DNA from: Candidatus Heimdallarchaeota archaeon
Lineage (GTDB): Archaea > Asgardarchaeota > Heimdallarchaeia > Heimdallarchaeales > Kariarchaeaceae
Direction: 5' to 3'
Assembly: GCA_026702845.1 (NCBI GenBank)
Contig: JADCLS010000003.1
Coordinates: forward strand, 62,001-126,000
Length of the DNA: 64,000 nt
This document shows, one piece after another, positions 15,158 through 51,612 of this stretch. The notes beneath the pieces are model-generated. The model saw only the letters and a list, made by a program, of their open reading frames with translations, made no database searches and had not been told where the DNA came from. Position 1 is the stretch's first letter; each line of letters starts with the position of its first letter. The position numbers and the translations under genes were made by a program.

Positions 15158-17263
15158 ATGATAACCAGAGACCAATTTGAGGAAGACACTGAAAACCGGA
15201 TAACACAAGTAAAAGATCGAAAGAATTTGAAAATTAAAGAAAATTATTTAGAAAAGAAGGAGATGTGGCAAAATGAAAAAACTCAAGAAAATTATAGAAA
15301 ACATCATACAGTAAATAATCGAGATAATATAAAATGCCATATTCAGAGGAAAGATTCAATATCCAAAGATAATGACATAATTATTGAAGTAATGGATGCC
15401 TGTGAGCCTCCTAACTTTAAAGATGAGCTTTCCAATGAGGGTATTATCAAGAATGAACAAAAGAAGAAGAGTTTGGTGAGTATACAAGCTATGGATGCCG
15501 CTGATTATGATTTAGTTTCTGCAGATTGGAAAGGTCTCTATGAAAAGTTTAGAACACAAGGAATTTATAGAAAAGAGATTGAAACTGCCATCGGTGCTAG
15601 ATTTCATGGTCAATTATATAAAAATTCCAAGATGAGATATTCAACTTTCAAAAAACTATTAGAGTTTTATGGAAAACCAATTGAACATAAAATTTTTCGA
15701 GAATTCAAAGCACCTTTTTCGAAAATGAAAAATCAGGATAGAGTAGTATATGAACTCAGAAAACCTGATGTAGCAAAGATTATGGATTATGATTATGTTA
15801 AAGCAGATTGGAGTAAAATATATCATGAGCTGAGATTGCAAGGTTTTAGTAAAAAAAGGATAAACCAAGAGCTTGGTACCCAATTTGATTCACAAATATA
15901 CGGAGGATATAATATGAAATACCAATATTTCAAGAAACTTGAAAAGTTGTTAGGGAAAAAAATCGAATATCAGATCATTAATCGAAGAAGTCATTTTGAT
16001 AAACAACTTGGAAAATTCAGAGTGTCCCATCAAGGTAAAACATTATTCTATGAAATGATAAATAAAGATGATTTACATCGAGATTTGATTGATCAAGATT
16101 ATATCTCAGCCGATTGGATTAATATTTATCAAAATTTAAAAGATCAAGGTTTAAATTTAAAGACTATAAGTGAAAAAATTGGTGTGAATTTTGCCAGTCA
16201 GCTATATAATGATTATACAATGAAATTCAAAAATTTTAAGATATTGCTTGAAATAGCAGATTTTGGTATTGATTATCAATTTGTGAATAAAGACTATAAG
16301 ATTGCTCAACGTGACAAAAGGTATCAAGATCTAAATACTTCTCCGAAAATAATTCGGGAATATAGAGAACCAGATATGAAAAATATCAAGCTATCAGATA
16401 AAGTTCAAGCTAGTTGGAAGAAGATCTTATTGGATTTGAACCGTGCAGGAGTATCAAAAGGAGAAATCACAAAATGCATCGGCTCATCATTCACTCACCA
16501 ATATAATGGCAACCGAGAGTTGAGATACAATAATTTTAGAATATTACAGAAATTGTACATGGATAAATGCTCGAAATCAATTGAATATATTATACTAGAT
16601 CAAGATTCTATTGATAGACAAAGAGAGAAGCAAATTAAGATAATAATGGATAAGATACCTGGAAATAAATACATAAAAAAAGTAGATGCAAAATTCTCAG
16701 AATTTTTGGGGATAGTTCATGGTGATGGCCATTTATCCTTCAAGGGTGAAGTTAAAATTACATTAGATAAATGGGAAATAGAATATGCTGAATATATAAA
16801 AAAAATGATGATGGATGAATTTGGAATTATTCCAAGGATAAAGCCTAGAAAGGGAGAAAATACCCTAGATATAAGAATTGGAAATAAAAAATTTGTATCA
16901 GAATTACAATCACTTGGCATGAGAACTGGAGATAAAACAAGGAACCAATCTGAAGTTCCAAGTATCATATTTATGAATTCACAAAATATGAGAAATTTCG
17001 CAATAGGCTTGTTCGATACGGATGGTTGTGCCGTGAGTTATGATTCATATTATGGTATAATTTTTACAAATAAAAATAAAAATTTACTGAATTTTTTTGC
17101 TGATTTTTGTTTTGACAATAATGTAGCTTGCAGCATTTATTCTACAAATTCAATCAGAATTGTAAACAAAAATGATATATCATTATTAATGAAATTATTA
17201 GATTCTTATAAGGTAAGAAGCTTTATTACCAAAAATAAGCTAGATAATATGGTTCAAAGCTAG
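15158..17263 (+). CDS. LAGLIDADG homing endonuclease with four N-terminal repeats
   Basis: A free-standing 701-residue protein. After a highly charged start (about 100 residues) come four divergent repeats of about 100 residues, each with the pattern DxxxADWxxIYxxLxxQGxxxxxIxxxIGxxFxxQLYxxxxMxYxxFKxLLE (about residues 110-505). They are probably DNA-binding helical modules. The C-terminal 195 residues form a LAGLIDADG nuclease with motifs FSEFLGIVHGDGH and NFAIGLFDTDGC, the acidic residues being intact. The C-terminal domain resembles the product of 17761-18405. It lies upstream of tRNA-Asn and tRNA-Val genes that carry introns. Its very AT-rich, Lys/Asn-rich coding suggests horizontal origin. 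Confidence 0.82.
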   Translation: MITRDQFEEDTENRITQVKDRKNLKIKENYLEKKEMWQNEKTQENYRKHHTVNNRDNIKCHIQRKDSISKDNDIIIEVMDACEPPNFKDELSNEGIIKNEQKKKSLVSIQAMDAADYDLVSADWKGLYEKFRTQGIYRKEIETAIGARFHGQLYKNSKMRYSTFKKLLEFYGKPIEHKIFREFKAPFSKMKNQDRVVYELRKPDVAKIMDYDYVKADWSKIYHELRLQGFSKKRINQELGTQFDSQIYGGYNMKYQYFKKLEKLLGKKIEYQIINRRSHFDKQLGKFRVSHQGKTLFYEMINKDDLHRDLIDQDYISADWINIYQNLKDQGLNLKTISEKIGVNFASQLYNDYTMKFKNFKILLEIADFGIDYQFVNKDYKIAQRDKRYQDLNTSPKIIREYREPDMKNIKLSDKVQASWKKILLDLNRAGVSKGEITKCIGSSFTHQYNGNRELRYNNFRILQKLYMDKCSKSIEYIILDQDSIDRQREKQIKIIMDKIPGNKYIKKVDAKFSEFLGIVHGDGHLSFKGEVKITLDKWEIEYAEYIKKMMMDEFGIIPRIKPRKGENTLDIRIGNKKFVSELQSLGMRTGDKTRNQSEVPSIIFMNSQNMRNFAIGLFDTDGCAVSYDSYYGIIFTNKNKNLLNFFADFCFDNNVACSIYSTNSIRIVNKNDISLLMKLLDSYKVRSFITKNKLDNMVQS

Positions 17264-17760: not shown

Positions 17761-18405
17761 TTAATTATCATCAATAGGATGAGAAATACTTAAATCTAGC
17801 AGAGATAAGTTATTTAAATTCAGAAATTTCTTTATTTTAAAAGATACATTAAATATTTTCGCAAACTTGGCTACACTCTTCATAGCTCTAATATTAATAC
17901 TATCAGGGCCTCTTGAAAAAGAAATATCAGATTCGAAACAAAAATCTTCAAAGAAATCTAATAAAGGCATACTCCTGTTAGAAAAGGAGATACCTACATA
18001 CCTAGTATTATTATTCCGTTTAACCCAAAATATACTGCCATCAGAATCAAACAATCCTAGCATGCAGTATTTCGAAAAGAGGTTATTCCGTTTTATCCAA
18101 TTAGGAACAGAGACTTGATTTTTAACCTTATTTCCGGTAGTTAAACCTAATCGCACTAACTCATTAGATATAGCTTGTTTACTTGTATATATGTGATAAG
18201 CATTGCAATCTTTTTTGTAAATCACACTAGGTTTTAGATGAAAAAGAGAAGAAATCAGATTTTCAACATGATTTCCAATAGTATTTTTTTCTGCACTGTT
18301 AAAGGTCATTATTAATTGTTGGCTACTTAAACTCCCATCTCCAAGAATAAAACCTATTAATTCAGCGGTTTGATTGTTTTTTTCAATATAATTTTTCTCA
18401 TGCAT
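17761..18405 (-). CDS. LAGLIDADG homing endonuclease, free-standing
   Basis: A 214-residue two-motif LAGLIDADG nuclease: ELIGFILGDGSL (near residue 16) and KYCMLGLFDSDGSI (about residue 118), both with intact acidic catalytic positions. Shared features such as LGLTTGNKVKNQVSVPNWI versus LGMRTGDKTRNQSEVPSII tie it to the C-terminal domain of the 701-residue endonuclease on the other side of the tRNA pair. It is not inside an intron or intein. It begins beside tRNA-Val and is transcribed towards it. Confidence 0.83.
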   Translation of the reverse strand: MHEKNYIEKNNQTAELIGFILGDGSLSSQQLIMTFNSAEKNTIGNHVENLISSLFHLKPSVIYKKDCNAYHIYTSKQAISNELVRLGLTTGNKVKNQVSVPNWIKRNNLFSKYCMLGLFDSDGSIFWVKRNNNTRYVGISFSNRSMPLLDFFEDFCFESDISFSRGPDSINIRAMKSVAKFAKIFNVSFKIKKFLNLNNLSLLDLSISHPIDDN

Positions 18406-19547: not shown

Positions 19548-19622
19548 AGGCTCGTAACTCAGACTGGTTAGAGTGCCTGCCTCACACGCAGGAAGTCGTG
19601 CGTTCAAATCGCACCGGGCCTA
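19548..19622 (+). tRNA. tRNA-Val(CAC), no intron
   Basis: Acceptor AGGCTCG and CGGGCCT, discriminator A; anticodon arm CCTGC-CTCACAC-GCAGG gives CAC; T arm GTGCG-TTCAAAT-CGCAC. At 75 nt it is a normal intronless tRNA and has the same acceptor as tRNA-Val(TAC), confirming the identity of both. Confidence 0.95.
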
Positions 19623-19623
19623 T

Positions 19624-20067
19624 TTATTCAGAAGAATCAAACCGATCTTCTTGTGTAGCTTTAGCAGTAATTGCTCTGAGAAGGTGTGAGATTGCCACAG
19701 AGCAGGCATATTTCTCCTGTTTCCTCCCATCTAGTTGTGTAATATCTAGTTTATCACCAATGATGACCATCATATTTTCAAGTGCTATAAGATCGGTGTA
19801 AAAGGCATAGGCAATCAGTGCCTCTGCAGCATCGGATACTTTATCAGGTTTTGTTCGCTGACCCAGATGGGAACGTAATCCCGTTTCCTCCATGGCCAGT
19901 CGTAGGCTATAATCCCAGACATGTACTCCCCCAGATACTCCTTTGATTCCAACACGAACAGTGGAGTATATGAAATTGATGAGAAAATCGCCCAGTTGTG
20001 CAAGATCTCTTGATTGTAACACTACCCGTAGATGTCTGCTCGATAGTTCGGGTATACTTAAATCCAT
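19624..20067 (-). CDS. RNase III-like protein (archaeal, short)
   Basis: The core resembles the ribonuclease III catalytic helix: LAQLGDFLINFIYSTVRVG fits the LGDAVL signature and SDAAEALIAYAFYTDLIALENM fits the second acidic motif (DxxEALIGAxYLD). It lacks a double-strand RNA-binding domain. The ATG at 20067 (MDLSIPELSSRHLRVVLQ) is preferred; the longer start at 20184 lies inside the Rpo11 gene. The position next to Rpo11 and the exosome gene csl4 supports an RNA-processing role. Cleavage activity is untested, and one acidic position (D in LGDF) is clear while others need a structural alignment. Confidence 0.6.
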   Translation of the reverse strand: MDLSIPELSSRHLRVVLQSRDLAQLGDFLINFIYSTVRVGIKGVSGGVHVWDYSLRLAMEETGLRSHLGQRTKPDKVSDAAEALIAYAFYTDLIALENMMVIIGDKLDITQLDGRKQEKYACSVAISHLLRAITAKATQEDRFDSSE

Positions 20068-24914: not shown

Positions 24915-25009
24915 TACAAAAAATCCAAGTACATTCTAGTTTTTATCACTATCTCTTTCAAGTAATATTTACACAAAGAATTATCATTTAAAATGATCAA
25001 AAGAAAAAA

Positions 25010-25084
25010 TGGGCCTGGAGGGATTTGAACCCTCGACAGACCGGTTATGAGCCAGTCACTCTAACCAAGCTGAGTTACAAGCCC
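25010..25084 (-). tRNA. tRNA-Met(CAT), elongator type
   Basis: Read on the minus strand: acceptor GGGCTTG with CAGGCCC, anticodon arm ACTGG-CTCATAA-CCGGT giving CAT, T arm with GGTTCAAAT. No intron. CAT can also be tRNA-Ile2 after agmatidine or lysidine modification, but the stem sequences fit elongator Met better. Confidence 0.9.
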
Positions 25085-45151: not shown

Positions 45152-45340
45152 ATACTTTCTATTAAAATTGTATTGAAATACCTTTTCAGTAAAAAATGTC
45201 AATCATGAGGAAATAATTCACTGATTGTGACCCCAAAAATCTGATTCCGAGCCCATATATTCACCTGATCATCAAATATATGAAATTGTCATCAATAATA
45301 GAATTTTAATTGATAATAGGATTAAAGTTGATAATTGAAA

Positions 45341-45781
45341 TTATGCGTTTACGTCGTGGAAGTTATATTTGGGATCTCTGTTATTGAAGTGGTACTTGTC
45401 AATGTGTTTCTGATCAATACGCTTCAACTGTCTGGTTGGATTGGGGAATATACCCAATAATTCCCAGCCAAGATCAAGAGTCTCGAAAATTGACCTGTTG
45501 GTCATACCCTGGTTCAGGAAGCGATTCTCGAATTCCTCAGCAAATTTTAGATAAAGCATATCCTCATCTGAGAGTGATTCCTCACCAACGACTGCCACGA
45601 GATCTCTGATTTCACGGCCCTTGGCATAACCCGCATAGAGCTGTGCTGATAGACCTGAATGATCCTCTCTTGTTGATCCTTTTCCGATAGCCTCCTTCAT
45701 AAGACGGGATAGAGACGGGAGAGGGTTAATTGGAGGATAAACACCCTTACGGGCCAGTGCACGGTCGATTAGGACCTGTCC
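45341..45781 (-). pseudogene. atpB: Displaced 3' end of atpB (441-bp copy)
   Basis: These 441 bp are a colinear copy of the last 147 codons of the intact atpB (48703-49143), with no indels. Differences are about 10-13% by eye, nearly all silent: only four amino-acid changes were counted over the 147 codons (for example IFE for IFD near the end). Similarity stops sharply after the sequence GGACCTGTCC at 45781 (49143 in the intact gene). The copy has no 5' part or promoter. It looks like the original gene end left behind when an element entered the gene and brought its own 3' end. Confidence 0.85.
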
Positions 45782-46443
45782 TTCTGTAGAATATCATTCA
45801 CATTTTTCTCATTTATATATTCAATTGACTGTTTATAGAATGATTTATTCTCACAATAGCCGTATACATGAATGAATTTCATTCCTACACTTTCAGAACC
45901 AATATCTCTCTTAAGGTTATCGCCAAAAAATAGACATTCCTTAGGTTCAACACCTATTTTATCTAAAGCAACTTGAAATATTTTAGGAGCAGGTTTTTCA
46001 ACTCCGATTTCCTCAGAAACTACAATTGCATCAAAAACATTCATTTCCAAGGAATTTAGAATTTCAATCCATTCATTTTTAACTACTGTAGCATTATCTG
46101 AGAGTATTCCAAGTTTATATTTTTCTTTTATTGATTTAAGAAAGGCCCATGTTCCCTGCTTATCCTCTAATATTTCATTTCTAATTCCCTTCCTCAATTC
46201 AGCTCTGAAAGCTTCAAGTAATTCCTCTACAATTGAGATATCAAGATTTAACAATTCTATTACTCTTGAAAGTTTGGATATTGAAGTAAAAGATCCTTCA
46301 AATTTCTCATATGTGGAAAAAAATATTTCTAAAAATTTTTCAGCTTCGATTTTATAATGAGGTAATACCCTTTTCCAAGCATCATAAATAACTGTGTGAG
46401 AATATAATGTATTTCCAAGGTCAAATAACAGACAAGTAATCAT
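45769..46443 (-). CDS. HAD-superfamily hydrolase carried by the atpB insertion
   Basis: A 224-residue HAD protein: motif [10 protein letters not shown] (Asp nucleophile, second Asp replaced by Gly/Asn), motif II Ser or Thr in GILSDNATV, Lys in [10 protein letters not shown] and motif [12 protein letters not shown]. The AGGAG box upstream supports ATG 46443; an in-frame extension to 46509 is less likely. Its last codons run into the atpB copy on its 3' side and stop there. It is divergent from the endonuclease gene on the other strand, and both lie between the two atpB ends. Confidence 0.7.
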
Positions 46444-46474
46444 TACCAATTCTCCTATTTTCAAAGATTCCGAG

Positions 46475-46482
46475 TTTAAATA
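46475..46482 (+). promoter_or_regulatory. TATA box for the element's endonuclease gene
   Basis: TTTAAATA ends 25 nt before the ATG at 46508, the spacing of leaderless archaeal promoters. It lies in the 64-bp divergent space between the HAD and endonuclease genes, so the element carries its own promoter. Confidence 0.5.
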
Positions 46483-46507
46483 AGAACTTATGATATTTCT
46501 TGTATCC

Positions 46508-48700
46508 ATGAGACATAAATTTCTCTCAATTCTGCAAATGAACGATTCCGTTCTTTCATTACTGAATGGACAGATACTGAATATTGATTACCTCAGAGAG
46601 AAAACAGGTTTATCAGATCAGAAAATAAGACGATTATATAAAGCTGAGCTGATACAACAAATTAATGAGCTACTAAGGGAGAAATCTGTCAATGAGACCG
46701 CTGAACTGATGGGCTATACTCCTGATGCTATTGGAAGCATGAAGAGAGAATTTTATCTGCCAAATGAAGATCTAGGAAAGCAGATTGATGATATCAATGT
46801 GAGTAAACTTGCAGAAGAATTGGGTGAGAGTACACAATTTGTCAGGAATATCTACAAGACATCAATTTTACACAAATTAAATGAGATTTTAAAAATCAAT
46901 TCTGATCAGAAGGCTGCTGCAAAAGCCTGTGGTATCAGCTATGATGTTGCCAGAAAACTTGCTAAACAATATAAATTACCATTTGAGAATGCAGTTCAAA
47001 AACATCAGCCATACAGTTCTGAGGGGAGGAGAACAAAAAATACACTCAAACATGATCCACAGAAGACTAGAAAAATAAGGATTGGGCCTAATACTCGTAT
47101 CATCACCCCTTATGGGATTATCTTTGCCAAGGATTTGCTTGGAAAAACAGAGGAAGAATTGAAGAACATGGGTCCATTTCTGGCAATCAATGAGAATAAT
47201 GAGCTGGTCACCTGTGATATTCTCTCTGCAAAGGAAGTGGTTGGGAAGGCAGTGAGGATGAAGACACGACTAGGTGCGGATGTATTACTGGGAGAAGGAA
47301 TGAAGGTGATAGCCGATCAGGAGACTGGATTGGAACCCCTTTGTGTTAAGGATTTAGGGGAGGGAGTGCAGATCATGACTGTGAAATCTCTTGAAAAATT
47401 GCCTGACACAGAATTCAACTTCTTTGATCTCCTGGAGGGAGATATCCCGATCACCTTAATTCTTAAGAAAGAAGTGGGCAATCTTATCATAAACAAACTA
47501 ATTCTAAAATATGGAACACTGAAAAAGGCTTGCACAGCACTTGGCATACACTATCGAAAGGTTTCTGAACGTAGATTTTATCGTGAGTTTCTCATCAAGA
47601 TATACAATGATATAGGGTATCCTGATATAACTGATCCTGATTTCTTTGAGCAGGTAAAGAAGATTGGAATCGGAGGAAAGAAGGCCAAAGTACTCAATAT
47701 TAAGGTGGATGAGGATCTTCTTTACATGGCTGGTCTCATAGGATCTGATGGTTATGTGGCCAAGGATCCTAATCGAAAAAGTGTACTGGGTTTCTCTAAT
47801 ACTGATAAAGTACTACTTGATAAATTTGAAAAAATTCTAAAAAAATATTTTCCTCAACGATTGGTTAGTCCAAAACCCCCTAATGATCCCAAGTATACTG
47901 CTACTGATGAGGTAGCATACAATTTTCCATTGGTGGAGTTCATTAATAATTTGGGTGTTAAGGGCCGGGATGTACAAGATGAAAGAGGTTACTTTCCCAT
48001 ATTCAAGTTAAACAAGACACTAATAGCAGCCTTCATCAGAGGGTTATTTGATGGAGATGGAAATTTAGATAACACTGCAAAATTACTTAACATTGCGATA
48101 TTTGATGAGAGCAAAATCAAAAATGTTCAAATTATGTTGAAAAAAATTGGTATTGACTCAAAAATTAAGATATCTGAACAGTTTACAAAACCCCCATTTG
48201 CTAAGGAGAAGATATGGTCAACAAAATATGAATTAGAAATCGCAGGTAAAAAAGATTTGATAAAATTTATAAAATTAATTGGATCAAATCATTTAGAAAA
48301 GTCAAGAAAGTCTGATAAAATGAAAATAGAATATACTGGGAAAATGGAAATATCTTCAAAATATAATTTAGCTCCGAAATTGTGTGGAAAATTAATTAAA
48401 AATTTAAGAAAGAAGTTCAAATTATCTCGAAGTGAAATTGGAAAATATTATCATGTATGGCAAGTTGAAACAGGAAATTCAAGAATATCTATAGATAAGC
48501 TCAGGAAGATTGTTGATAATCTATCTAAGATTAAAGGAATTTCTAATTTAAAGGATTTCAAAAAATTGATCATCCTAACTTCCTATGACTTCAATCTAGA
48601 TGTCTTTTCTGAAATTTATGATGAAATTAAATCAAAATTAATTGAGTTTGATACTAATAATCGACTTTGTATAGACAATGGTATTGTTATTGATGAATAA
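46508..48700 (+). CDS. Free-standing Hint/LAGLIDADG endonuclease (intein-derived)
   Basis: A 730-residue protein. The N-terminal 190 residues hold two helix-turn-helix-like repeats. Then comes a Hint-like half (NTRIITPYGIIFAKDLLG ... AVRMKTRLGADVLLGEGMKVIADQETGLEPLCVKDLGEGVQIM) without the Cys1 needed for splicing. After another HTH segment, a two-motif LAGLIDADG nuclease follows: LLYMAGLIGSDGYV and FIRGLFDGDGNL, acidic residues intact. A C-terminal HTH resembles those of archaeal inteins. It is a self-standing gene whose stop lies 2 bp from the stop of the convergent atpB. The ATG at 46508 fits the TATA box. Confidence 0.8.
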   Translation: MRHKFLSILQMNDSVLSLLNGQILNIDYLREKTGLSDQKIRRLYKAELIQQINELLREKSVNETAELMGYTPDAIGSMKREFYLPNEDLGKQIDDINVSKLAEELGESTQFVRNIYKTSILHKLNEILKINSDQKAAAKACGISYDVARKLAKQYKLPFENAVQKHQPYSSEGRRTKNTLKHDPQKTRKIRIGPNTRIITPYGIIFAKDLLGKTEEELKNMGPFLAINENNELVTCDILSAKEVVGKAVRMKTRLGADVLLGEGMKVIADQETGLEPLCVKDLGEGVQIMTVKSLEKLPDTEFNFFDLLEGDIPITLILKKEVGNLIINKLILKYGTLKKACTALGIHYRKVSERRFYREFLIKIYNDIGYPDITDPDFFEQVKKIGIGGKKAKVLNIKVDEDLLYMAGLIGSDGYVAKDPNRKSVLGFSNTDKVLLDKFEKILKKYFPQRLVSPKPPNDPKYTATDEVAYNFPLVEFINNLGVKGRDVQDERGYFPIFKLNKTLIAAFIRGLFDGDGNLDNTAKLLNIAIFDESKIKNVQIMLKKIGIDSKIKISEQFTKPPFAKEKIWSTKYELEIAGKKDLIKFIKLIGSNHLEKSRKSDKMKIEYTGKMEISSKYNLAPKLCGKLIKNLRKKFKLSRSEIGKYYHVWQVETGNSRISIDKLRKIVDNLSKIKGISNLKDFKKLIILTSYDFNLDVFSEIYDEIKSKLIEFDTNNRLCIDNGIVIDE

Positions 48701-48702
48701 TT

Positions 48703-50193
48703 CTATGCATCTACGTTGTGGAAATCATATTTTGGATCTCTGTTATTGAAGTGATATTTATCGATATGTTTCTGATCAATTCTCTTTAATTGTCTGGTTG
48801 GATTGGGGAATATTCCCAATAATTCCCAACCTAGATCAAGAGTATCGAAAATTGACCTGTTGGTCATACCCTGGTTCAGGAAGCGATTCTCGAATTCCTC
48901 AGCAAATTTTAGGTAAAGCATATCCTCATCTGAGAGTGATTCCTCACCGACGACTGCCACTAGATCTCGGATTTCACGACCTTTTGCATATCCCGCATAG
49001 AGCTGTGCAGATAGGCCAGAATGATCCTCCCTTGTGGAACCCTTTCCAATGGCCTCTTTCATGAGTCTAGAGAGAGAGGGTAGTGGATTTATAGGTGGAT
49101 AAACACCTTTTCTGGCCAGTGCACGGTCGATTAGGACCTGTCCCTCGGTTATATACCCGGTCAGATCAGGTATAGGATGCGTCATATCATCTGAGGGCAG
49201 GGTAAGAATGGGGATCTGAGTGATACTTCCCTTCTTGCCGATGATACGGCCAGCACGTTCGTAGATAGTAGATAGATCGGAGTACAGATAACCGGGGAAA
49301 CCTCGTCTTCCGGGTACTTCCTCTCGTGCGGCAGATATCTCACGGAGTGCCTCGGCGTAGTTGGTCATATCAGTGAGGATAACGAGTACGTGATAATCAA
49401 GATCAAATGCCAGGTACTCAGCATAGGTGAGTGCCAGACGTGGGGTGATGATACGCTCGACTGCAGGATCCTCTGCCAGGTTGAGGAACAGAGTAACTCT
49501 CTCCAGAGCACCGGATCTCTCGAAATCAGTCTGGAAGAATCTTGCTTCCTCAGCGGTGATACCCATGGCTGCGAATACTACGGCAAAGGATTCTCCCTCA
49601 CCGAGAACAGTTGCCTGACGGGCAATCTGTGCACCCAGCTGATTATGTGATAGACCACTACCGGAGAATAGGGGTAGTTTCTGTCCTCTCACCAGGGTGA
49701 GCAGGGCATCGATAGCGGATATTCCTGTCTGAATGAATGCACGGGGGTATTCTCGTGCGGAGGGGTTGAGTGGATCACCCGCAATTGGTCGTTTGATCTT
49801 ACCAATGGGTTTGGGTCCACCATCAATGGGTTCACCTCGTCCATTGAAGACACGACCCAGCATATCCTCTGCTAGAGGTAGCTGCAGGGTCTCTCCGATG
49901 AAGCGGACGGTGGTCTCCTTGGTATCAAGCCCGGAGGTTCCCTCGAAACTCTGTACAACTGCCAGGCCATCAGTGACCTCGAGTACCTGTCCCTTTCTTC
50001 GCTCTCCTCTGGGGGTCTCGATCTCACAGATCTCACCATAGGAAACACCTCCCTTGCCTTCTAAATCAACAAAAAGCAGTGGACCACTGACTTCTTGCAC
50101 AGTCATGAAACTGCGTAATGTTGGATCATTTGTCTGTTCTGTACTCATACCGTTTACAGCCTCTAATGTAGCTCTGTTTCTCGATTTCGTCAA
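48703..50193 (-). CDS. atpB: Archaeal A-type ATP synthase subunit B
   Basis: The non-catalytic B subunit of the A1Ao ATP synthase, 496 residues, intact. Features: [96 protein letters not shown] and [23 protein letters not shown]. The normal neighbours atpA and atpD are missing: 3' is the element, 5' (207 bp away) is a divergent orphan gene. The last 441 bp are probably supplied by the inserted element, being slightly different in silent sites from the displaced copy. Confidence 0.95.
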
Positions 50194-50400: not shown

Positions 50401-51612
50401 ATGGATCTTATCATTCCCATCTTCCGCAAGGGTGAGTATGCGCATAATTATCTAGAGATAATCACCAGTGAGGAGTTTGCCACATTATTTGGTGATGATC
50501 TGGGTGATGATGAGATGGATGTATCCATGCTGCAGATACATATGCTCAGTACATCTGGTATGTGTAGACTTGAAACTGTCTATCGCACCATGAGTAATGA
50601 ACTCATCCGCATTCGCACCAACTCTGGTTTGCAATTTCATCTGGCACCAGAACAGGAGGTAGCTGTGATTGATGGAGAGATACAGTATATCAAGGCAAAG
50701 AATTTACGATTAGATGATGTGCTGGTGGGATTCTCAGGAGAATTCAACAATATCTTTGCGGATCGTGAATTTCTTGATATCATCACCGAATTACTACGTA
50801 CTTCACCTGTGGATAAGTTAAGTAATATCACTGTCAGGGGAATCAAGGAATACATGCGATCTGTTAACCTGCAGGATGAGAAGATCAAGAATAGCATGGA
50901 TATCACTGCATTCTCCGCACTGGTGGCAGAAAACGGGGTGTATGATGATGAGCTGGATTTTCTGCAGCTATCCAGCAAGGAAAATGATATCCATGTATCA
51001 TCGAAATTATTCATCAGTCCCGAACTCTTCGAGTTTCTGGGTGTATTCTGGAGACATGGACATTACGAACGGGGTATTCCCGTCTGTGATGTGGCATCAC
51101 TGCCAAGAGCCAAAGAAGTGGTCAAACTCATCAAGAAGGCACTCAATGCAGGATCCACCATTATTCCCATGGGCAAGATGTTCAGGGTAAGCCTGCACAC
51201 CAGCATCTACACCCGTATACTATCAGATATCTTCGGCATGCTGGGTCTACCCTCATCATCCAAGCTACCAGATCGTATCTTCAATGCAGATGAGGAGCAT
51301 GTGATGGCATTTCTGAGTGCTGTACTCCAGGATGATGAGATTATCTGTCATGATCACTATGCAACACAGGAATTTTTGTTGTTGCTCCGCACCCTATCCA
51401 TCTACCCCGTGGTGGAGGATGAGCGTATCGTCTTCACCGAGAATGATCTCAAGATGCTGGAGGATGAGGAGGCAGAGGAGCAGGATCCTGCAGAGATCAT
51501 CCGAGAGCTGGATACTGTATTACTGGATCAGGCCATTCCCGTCTACCAGCTGAAATGTGCCGAAAATTATTATGCAGGACAGGGAATACTGTTGAGATCT
51601 AAAGAAGAATAG
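50401..51612 (+). CDS. Orphan decayed intein-like Hint/LAGLIDADG protein
   Basis: A 403-residue protein with no extein. The first 110 residues look like an intein N-terminal Hint half without Cys1 (CRLETVYRTMSNELIRIRTNSGLQFHLAPEQEVAVIDGEIQYIKAKNLRLDDVLVG, where the middle matches the block-B-like strand). A middle part recalls LAGLIDADG but lacks the acidic Asp pairs (FEFLGVFWRHGHY and VMAFLSAVLQDDEII). The final VYQLKCAENYYAGQGILLRS imitates the intein C-block (VYDLTV...HNFxAxGILVHN), but without the terminal HN-Cys/Ser. It seems a domesticated, catalytically dead intein fossil. Confidence 0.65.
   Translation: MDLIIPIFRKGEYAHNYLEIITSEEFATLFGDDLGDDEMDVSMLQIHMLSTSGMCRLETVYRTMSNELIRIRTNSGLQFHLAPEQEVAVIDGEIQYIKAKNLRLDDVLVGFSGEFNNIFADREFLDIITELLRTSPVDKLSNITVRGIKEYMRSVNLQDEKIKNSMDITAFSALVAENGVYDDELDFLQLSSKENDIHVSSKLFISPELFEFLGVFWRHGHYERGIPVCDVASLPRAKEVVKLIKKALNAGSTIIPMGKMFRVSLHTSIYTRILSDIFGMLGLPSSSKLPDRIFNADEEHVMAFLSAVLQDDEIICHDHYATQEFLLLLRTLSIYPVVEDERIVFTENDLKMLEDEEAEEQDPAEIIRELDTVLLDQAIPVYQLKCAENYYAGQGILLRSKEE

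Follow-up and report, generated by a model that had tools for sequence, protein, structure and literature searches.

A probable WHO-type homing element, related to AtpB inteins, at the 3′ end of atpB in an Asgard archaeon

In the intronless homing of phage T4, a free-standing endonuclease cuts near its own locus and the flanking sequences are co-converted, a process that resembles the one we propose here for an Asgard archaeon. To our knowledge, the phage system carries no replacement 3′ end and leaves no displaced gene fragment. WHO elements of yeast are intein-like, free-standing genes that are fused to a zinc finger, lie below FBA1, and replace the 3′ end of FBA1 at each homing event (Coughlan et al. 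2020, eLife 9:e55336, PMC7282813; commentary PMC7282806). That paper relates WHO and HO to VDE, the intein in VMA1 (PMC7282813). Fungal mitochondrial mORFs with foreign C-termini are described for Allomyces, Glomus, and Rhizopus (Beaudet et al. 2013, PMC3630166), and C-terminal duplications beside LAGLIDADG open reading frames for Endoconidiophora (PMC6279837). Where a report on mobile elements of Heimdallarchaeum turns to homing endonucleases, it mentions one, beside the 16S rRNA (PMC8813620); a 2026 preprint describes free-standing homing endonuclease genes as generally confined to intergenic sites (PMC13405050). The sequence-only reading of the present locus knew of no described archaeal example at atpB, and our searches of open-licence PMC papers found no archaeal or bacterial case of 3′-end-replacing homing. 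The mechanism itself, however, has precedents in the yeast WHO elements and the fungal mORFs.

The locus lies in a window of 64,000 nucleotides, the whole stretch analyzed, on a contig of 399,977 bp. Its features are as follows (HEG, homing endonuclease gene).

45276–45338, plus strand: tail of an older HEG, comprising its final 20 codons and its stop, adjoining the displaced atpB end (in frame, and with its stop 2 bp from that of atpB, as for the intact HEG)
45341–45787, minus strand: displaced old atpB 3′ end, from TEGQVLIDR through the stop (colinear match to the attached end; self-BLAST)
45769–46443, minus strand: HAD-family hydrolase gene between the HEG and the old atpB copy (PF13419, E 1.8e-18)
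46508–48700, plus strand: free-standing LAGLIDADG endonuclease gene (the HEG), convergent with atpB, the stops of the two genes being 2 bp apart (PF14528, E 1.1e-19)
46508–46987, plus strand: N-terminal extension of the HEG with helical, HTH-like repeats (approximate limits; PF13518 HTH_28, E 6.6e-5, below the curated cut-off)
47063–47692, plus strand: N-terminal part of a dead Hint (splicing) region (approximate limits; comparison with AtpB inteins)
47684–48346, plus strand: LAGLIDADG endonuclease domain, motifs GLIGSDG and GLFDGDG
48703–49149, minus strand: attached, putatively incoming atpB 3′ end (matches the displaced old copy)
48703–50148, minus strand: complete atpB, encoding subunit B of the A-type ATP synthase (match to NF003235, V-type ATP synthase subunit B, at E 8.9e-222, which passes the cut-off of that model; PF00006 and PF22919; single unbroken open reading frame), read here as a hybrid of a resident 5′ part and an incoming 3′ end
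49356–49357, minus strand: Y263/A264 of atpB, insertion position of related Asgard AtpB inteins and candidate ancestral cut site

The last 147 codons of atpB occur twice on the minus strand, at 45341–45781 and 48703–49143, with a start-to-start spacing of 3362 bp. These 441-bp copies enclose the HEG and the HAD gene and are colinear and free of indels, with 388 of 441 positions identical. Their 53 differences fall on codon positions 1, 2, and 3 in the ratio 7/0/46 and change four amino acids; the dN/dS check that had been proposed for them gave dN 0.021 and dS 0.71 (NG86). Four or fewer amino-acid changes among 53 differences have a probability of 6.6e-7 if 37.5% of changes are nonsynonymous, a share assumed to represent one copy that is unselected throughout. 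With G033, the closest genome compared, as reference, three of the four changes fall on the old copy, as expected if its loss of function is recent. The sequence-only reading had correctly described the colinear, indel-free duplication, its four amino-acid changes, and the mostly silent character of the divergence, and had placed the ends of the repeat too far inward. The old copy begins two codons further upstream (TE, encoded by ACA GAA in the old and ACC GAG in the new copy), and the repeat runs past the stop into the older HEG. This continuation upstream, with two silent differences, led us to drop the first 30 identical bases as a target-site duplication. Nucleotide self-BLAST of the window (E 1e-6) returned 45294–45787 and 48656–49149 as the sole direct repeat (494 bp, 85.4%). 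The only other match in this search is an 81-bp inverted repeat at 19549–19629 and 25003–25083 that is 76.5% identical.

Divergence between the copies is arranged in tracts. Silent differences number 0/10, 28/49, 6/46, and 9/33 in codons 0–10, 10–60, 60–110, and 110–146, respectively, and codons 60–110 are far closer than codons 10–60 (Fisher 1.2e-5). In codons 10–60, the 28/49 between the copies compares with 25/47 against G033 (p 0.84), an interspecies level of silent difference which indicates that the attached end contains sequence from a diverged allele or lineage. The longest identical run between the copies spans 24 degenerate codons (permutation p 0.0022), compared with 4–9 in four between-species pairs. 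Near-identity in codons 0–10 and 60–110 calls for later gene conversion or for a donor that was already mosaic. Silent sites are saturated relative to the relatives (dS undefined or >2), so phylogeny cannot separate donor from resident, and a GC3 change point within atpB, sought as a sign of where the imported tract begins on its left, did not reach significance (p 0.30).

Plus-strand bases before position 45341 read IYEIVINNRILIDNRIKVDN and then a stop codon, with 2 bp between it and the stop of the old atpB copy. The last 50 nucleotides of this older HEG tail match the HEG tail of G001 (CSMAG_823) at 35 positions, a level equaled at no other of 127,900 places in the window on both strands. 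The end-anchored match to the HEG tail of the window itself is 31/50, a level that is reached at 4 of 127,900 places: the older tail segment itself, the window HEG tail, and two unrelated sites. In a flank comparison based on single-base shuffles, the older tail was significant against G001 and not against the window HEG. Its 2-bp spacing and G001-like end argue that the resident atpB allele very probably already carried a HEG at its 3′ end.

Two relatives carry HEG remains at the same junction. G001 contains a 118-residue HEG fragment that is 56% identical, convergent to atpB, and separated from it by 8 bp between the two stops (dN 0.37 and dS 2.34 against the window HEG). G033 has a shorter, weaker trace after atpB that was not recovered in protein searches of that genome; its nucleotide score against G001 is 78 (best single-base shuffle, 58), and it shares the short peptide SEFNLDI in a frame that contains stops. 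Like the older tail, this trace reached significance in the flank comparison when set against G001, whereas comparison with the window HEG gave no significant score. Among ten other relatives, up to 300 bp after atpB (201 bp in G002) gave no score above z 4 against any HEG flank, and the C-terminal region of the HEG matched 29 of the 58 genomes of the class at E 0.5, with G001 the only convincing match. The older tail, the G001 remnant, and the weaker G033 trace together indicate that HEGs have been present at the atpB end repeatedly. The element had been read as one that entered atpB; given these older traces, this was not a first entry. The same junction, which the sequence-only reading proposed to look for in relatives, is found there in the form of the G001 remnant and the weaker G033 trace. 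A full second displaced atpB end is missing from the class of G001 (58 genomes, 55 of which gave matches).

The HEG has its nearest relatives in inteins inside atpB of three Asgard genomes (G176, E 3.8e-42; G178, 1.6e-40; G175, 1.2e-28); its best match to any other intein has an E value of 2.2e-22. In a tree of 22 rows picked from the matches, which left out G175 and an intein-like gene at 50401–51612, the HEG and the G176 and G178 inteins form a clade (98/95). The HEG branch is long, and identity to the AtpB inteins is 28–36%. Other inteins in the tree carry host labels that we assigned ourselves, presumably TruB, MCM, GyrA, RNR, and RpoA. Homology to the AtpB inteins runs along the Hint and LAGLIDADG regions and involves the same host gene. 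Splicing residues that are present in the G176 and G178 inteins have been lost from the HEG: on our reading, the residue expected to come first is not a Cys, TGDH of block B has become GEGM, and the C-terminal SN has become DE followed by the stop. The HEG thus departs from a functional intein, which has an N-terminal Cys or Ser, a block B His, a C-terminal Asn, a +1 nucleophile, and host exteins. Both LAGLIDADG motifs and their acidic residues are retained, and the LAGLIDADG fold is present in an AF2 model, in keeping with a LAGLIDADG endonuclease; the model is weak (mean pLDDT 54), and so only this part of it was used. The N-terminal extension is helical in the low-confidence model and unmatched when aligned to the AtpB inteins, which sit inside the gene and lack it. 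A protein of G034 (L141 3594–4340) resembles the extension at 30% and is a possible source of the domain. By sequence comparison, the HEG appears to have descended from an AtpB intein, to have lost splicing, and to have been freed as a separate gene.

A search by shared words through 5.8 billion proteins, with 7,999 candidates scored, recovered no relative of the HEG but itself, and viral contigs contained no relative of the HEG or of P0007, an atpB 3′-end fragment. P0007 and P0010 are two different atpB 3′-end fragments, the longest contig given for each has 22,842 bp, and P0010 is named Kariarchaeaceae; together, they could be a second case of a displaced atpB end. No full-length atpB on a 22,842-bp contig is among 111 listed. 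P0126 and P0150 were rejected as inteins in atpB, their signal being internal repeats of atpB itself. The HEG matches in G030 and G009 were likewise set aside as inteins in a gene without duplicated ends that we take, from its sequence, to be TruB/Cbf5-like.

Additional atpB pieces in the class of G001 comprise paralogs, contig-end halves in G013 and G014, and, in G021, a stretch of 61 residues. The last (G021:C206:5803-5988) corresponds to the atpB C-terminus with 51% identity and lies in a frame of 67 codons, separate from the main atpB of that genome. A true split of atpB in G013 and G014 was rejected; each represents two overlapping contig ends (L131, L132, L133, and L134). The overlaps cover atpB residues 330–371 and 333–371, the same stretch as the start of the displaced copy, and these assembly breaks probably reflect strain variation. 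The genomes compared included no two strains of which one has the element and the other lacks it. The HAD gene has distant relatives in the class, with matches in 5 of 58 genomes at E 1e-10.

To go by its atpB, the window comes from an Asgard of the Heimdallarchaeia type. This atpB is closest to those of G033 (95%), CSMAG_823 (91%), B11T1B5 (86%), and 'Kariarchaeota' (84%). Window and G033 have a common gene order upstream of atpB, with an intein-like gene (42%) and what we take to be an HD-domain gene (63%). The former, at 50401–51612 on the plus strand, is divergent from the atpB start and has no Pfam match (listed with L135 2174–3406); its product has the 42% identical relative at the equivalent place in G033. 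It resembles an intein-containing tetraether lipid synthase model at E 7e-10, far below the cut-off of that model, and comparison with the HEG and other inteins gave no match. To judge from these similarities, atpB seems to have an intein-derived gene on either side. Elsewhere in the window, two further free-standing LAGLIDADG_3 genes are convergent neighbors: 15158–17263 (plus strand; 701 amino acids, with internal repeats) and 17761–18405 (minus strand).

Compared with WHO elements as portrayed in the account of Coughlan and colleagues, the Asgard locus shares an intein-derived, free-standing LAGLIDADG gene without exteins or splicing, an extra DNA-binding or DNA-binding-like domain, and a position downstream of a conserved enzyme gene, here at the 3′ end of a complete one (PMC7282813). 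WHO clusters described there contain old 3′ fragments of ~400 bp, decayed older endonuclease genes pushed away, and a divergent 3′ part (PMC7282813). The first two have counterparts in the Asgard element, namely a displaced host 3′ fragment beyond the HEG and remains of an older HEG (20 codons) beyond that fragment; the two Asgard 3′ copies have diverged from each other. Some WHO genes in that account are oriented opposite to FBA1, as the HEG is to atpB (PMC7282813). The Asgard element differs in belonging to an archaeon, in using atpB rather than FBA1 as host, in its kinship to AtpB inteins (WHO and HO being related to VDE), and in having an N-terminal HTH-like domain in place of the C-terminal zinc finger reported for WHO (PMC7282813). 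No zinc finger was detected in the HEG by a Pfam scan at E 0.1, in which every match was to a LAGLIDADG, homing endonuclease, or HTH family. The locus holds one intact HEG and one tail, whereas the WHO loci described there form a long cluster (PMC7282813).

The mORFs, as presented by Beaudet and colleagues, are similar in that an endonuclease open reading frame brings a foreign 3′ end that replaces that of the host while the native 3′ end is displaced downstream, and their endonucleases are LAGLIDADG in most Glomus cases (PMC3630166). They belong to organelle genomes and, in the passages considered here, are not described as former inteins (PMC3630166). The Asgard element has the 3′-end replacement but consists of archaeal genes on a contig of nearly 400 kb. 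Since it has no zinc finger, is kin to AtpB inteins, and is not mitochondrial, we place it in neither the WHO nor the mORF family. It would work like both and has its own origin, and we regard it as a real archaeal addition to a recently described class of homing elements.

We consider it likely that the locus is a WHO-type homing element in which a HEG derived from an AtpB intein renews the 3′ end of atpB. An AtpB intein would have lost protein splicing, gained the N-terminal HTH-like extension, and become a separate gene convergent to the atpB 3′ end; the order of these changes is one that we infer. The HEG, which may still be active and mobile, would cut sensitive atpB alleles, and repair would copy a stretch of donor DNA that starts inside atpB and takes in both the 3′ end of the gene and the HEG. 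The donor 3′ end is divergent and would therefore be resistant. The resident 3′ end and the adjoining remnant of the earlier HEG would be joined behind, pushed 3.36 kb downstream, and left to decay. The HAD reading frame crosses the junction and closes, with ILQKDRS, at a stop codon supplied by the old atpB copy; the HAD gene, whose start as chosen is 64 bp from that of the HEG, is thus probably flanking donor DNA that was carried along and joined at this side. This scheme agrees with the earlier proposal that a divergent 3′ end of atpB came in along with the endonuclease gene, that the protein stayed whole, and that the old end was displaced without any need for splicing. The proposal that the element entered at the GQVLIDR codons fares less well, as these mark only the start of the old copy. 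The related inteins sit 71 codons (213 bp) upstream of residue G335; their insertion site in L145 and L146 reads TDMTNY^CESLREIS. The old fragment begins at atpB codon 333, and it is a fair guess that the HEG would have cut near this point, given that many WHO fragments, in the examples analyzed in that study, begin just after the cut site (PMC7282813). Resection could instead have set the edge of the fragment.

Other histories of the locus account for part of these observations. The former intein might merely reside at the atpB 3′ end as a passive neighbor, the region having been replaced by ordinary horizontal recombination that the HEG did not drive. The HEG remnants show that such a gene is able to sit there and decay, and cleavage is something that we infer; yet the HEG is kin to atpB inteins, and the new arrival of an intact copy coincides precisely with that of a divergent 3′ end, next to the tail of an older HEG with equal 2-bp spacing. 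We judge passive residence unlikely on this account. A tandem duplication of the atpB 3′ end, HEG, and HAD gene within the lineage, followed by divergence, would explain why the atpB–HEG end has the same architecture in both copies. It would be much harder to reconcile with 46 of 53 differences at third positions and four amino-acid changes, even though the old fragment cannot form a complete protein, and with divergence that is tract-wise and at interspecies level in codons 10–60; this makes it very improbable.

An assembly artefact, in which atpB alleles of two strains were fused in one contig, gains some plausibility from the likely metagenomic origin of the assembly. The contig is nevertheless long, HEG remnants adjoin atpB in other assemblies, and the HAD sequence continues straight into atpB, so that at least part of the HAD-adjacent atpB must be real. 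We therefore give such a fusion scarcely any credence. Returning to the WHO-type homing element, we also favor, with some reserve, a broader view of it as an independent archaeal origin of the third homing-element class, in which a former intein has remained loyal to atpB, has exchanged its 3′ end repeatedly, and acts upon this core energy gene as a "cleave and rescue" element of natural origin.

If this is true, inteins would have escaped protein splicing more than once to become 3′-end-replacing homing elements, in yeast (WHO and HO) and in archaea, and both escapes would be kin to ATPase inteins. Intermediate steps would have been caught, from the intein still within atpB to the gene set free from it and the fossils of that gene. 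The element would be a natural parallel of engineered cleave-and-rescue drives, and the 3′ part of atpB, a widely used marker gene, may differ in history from the rest.
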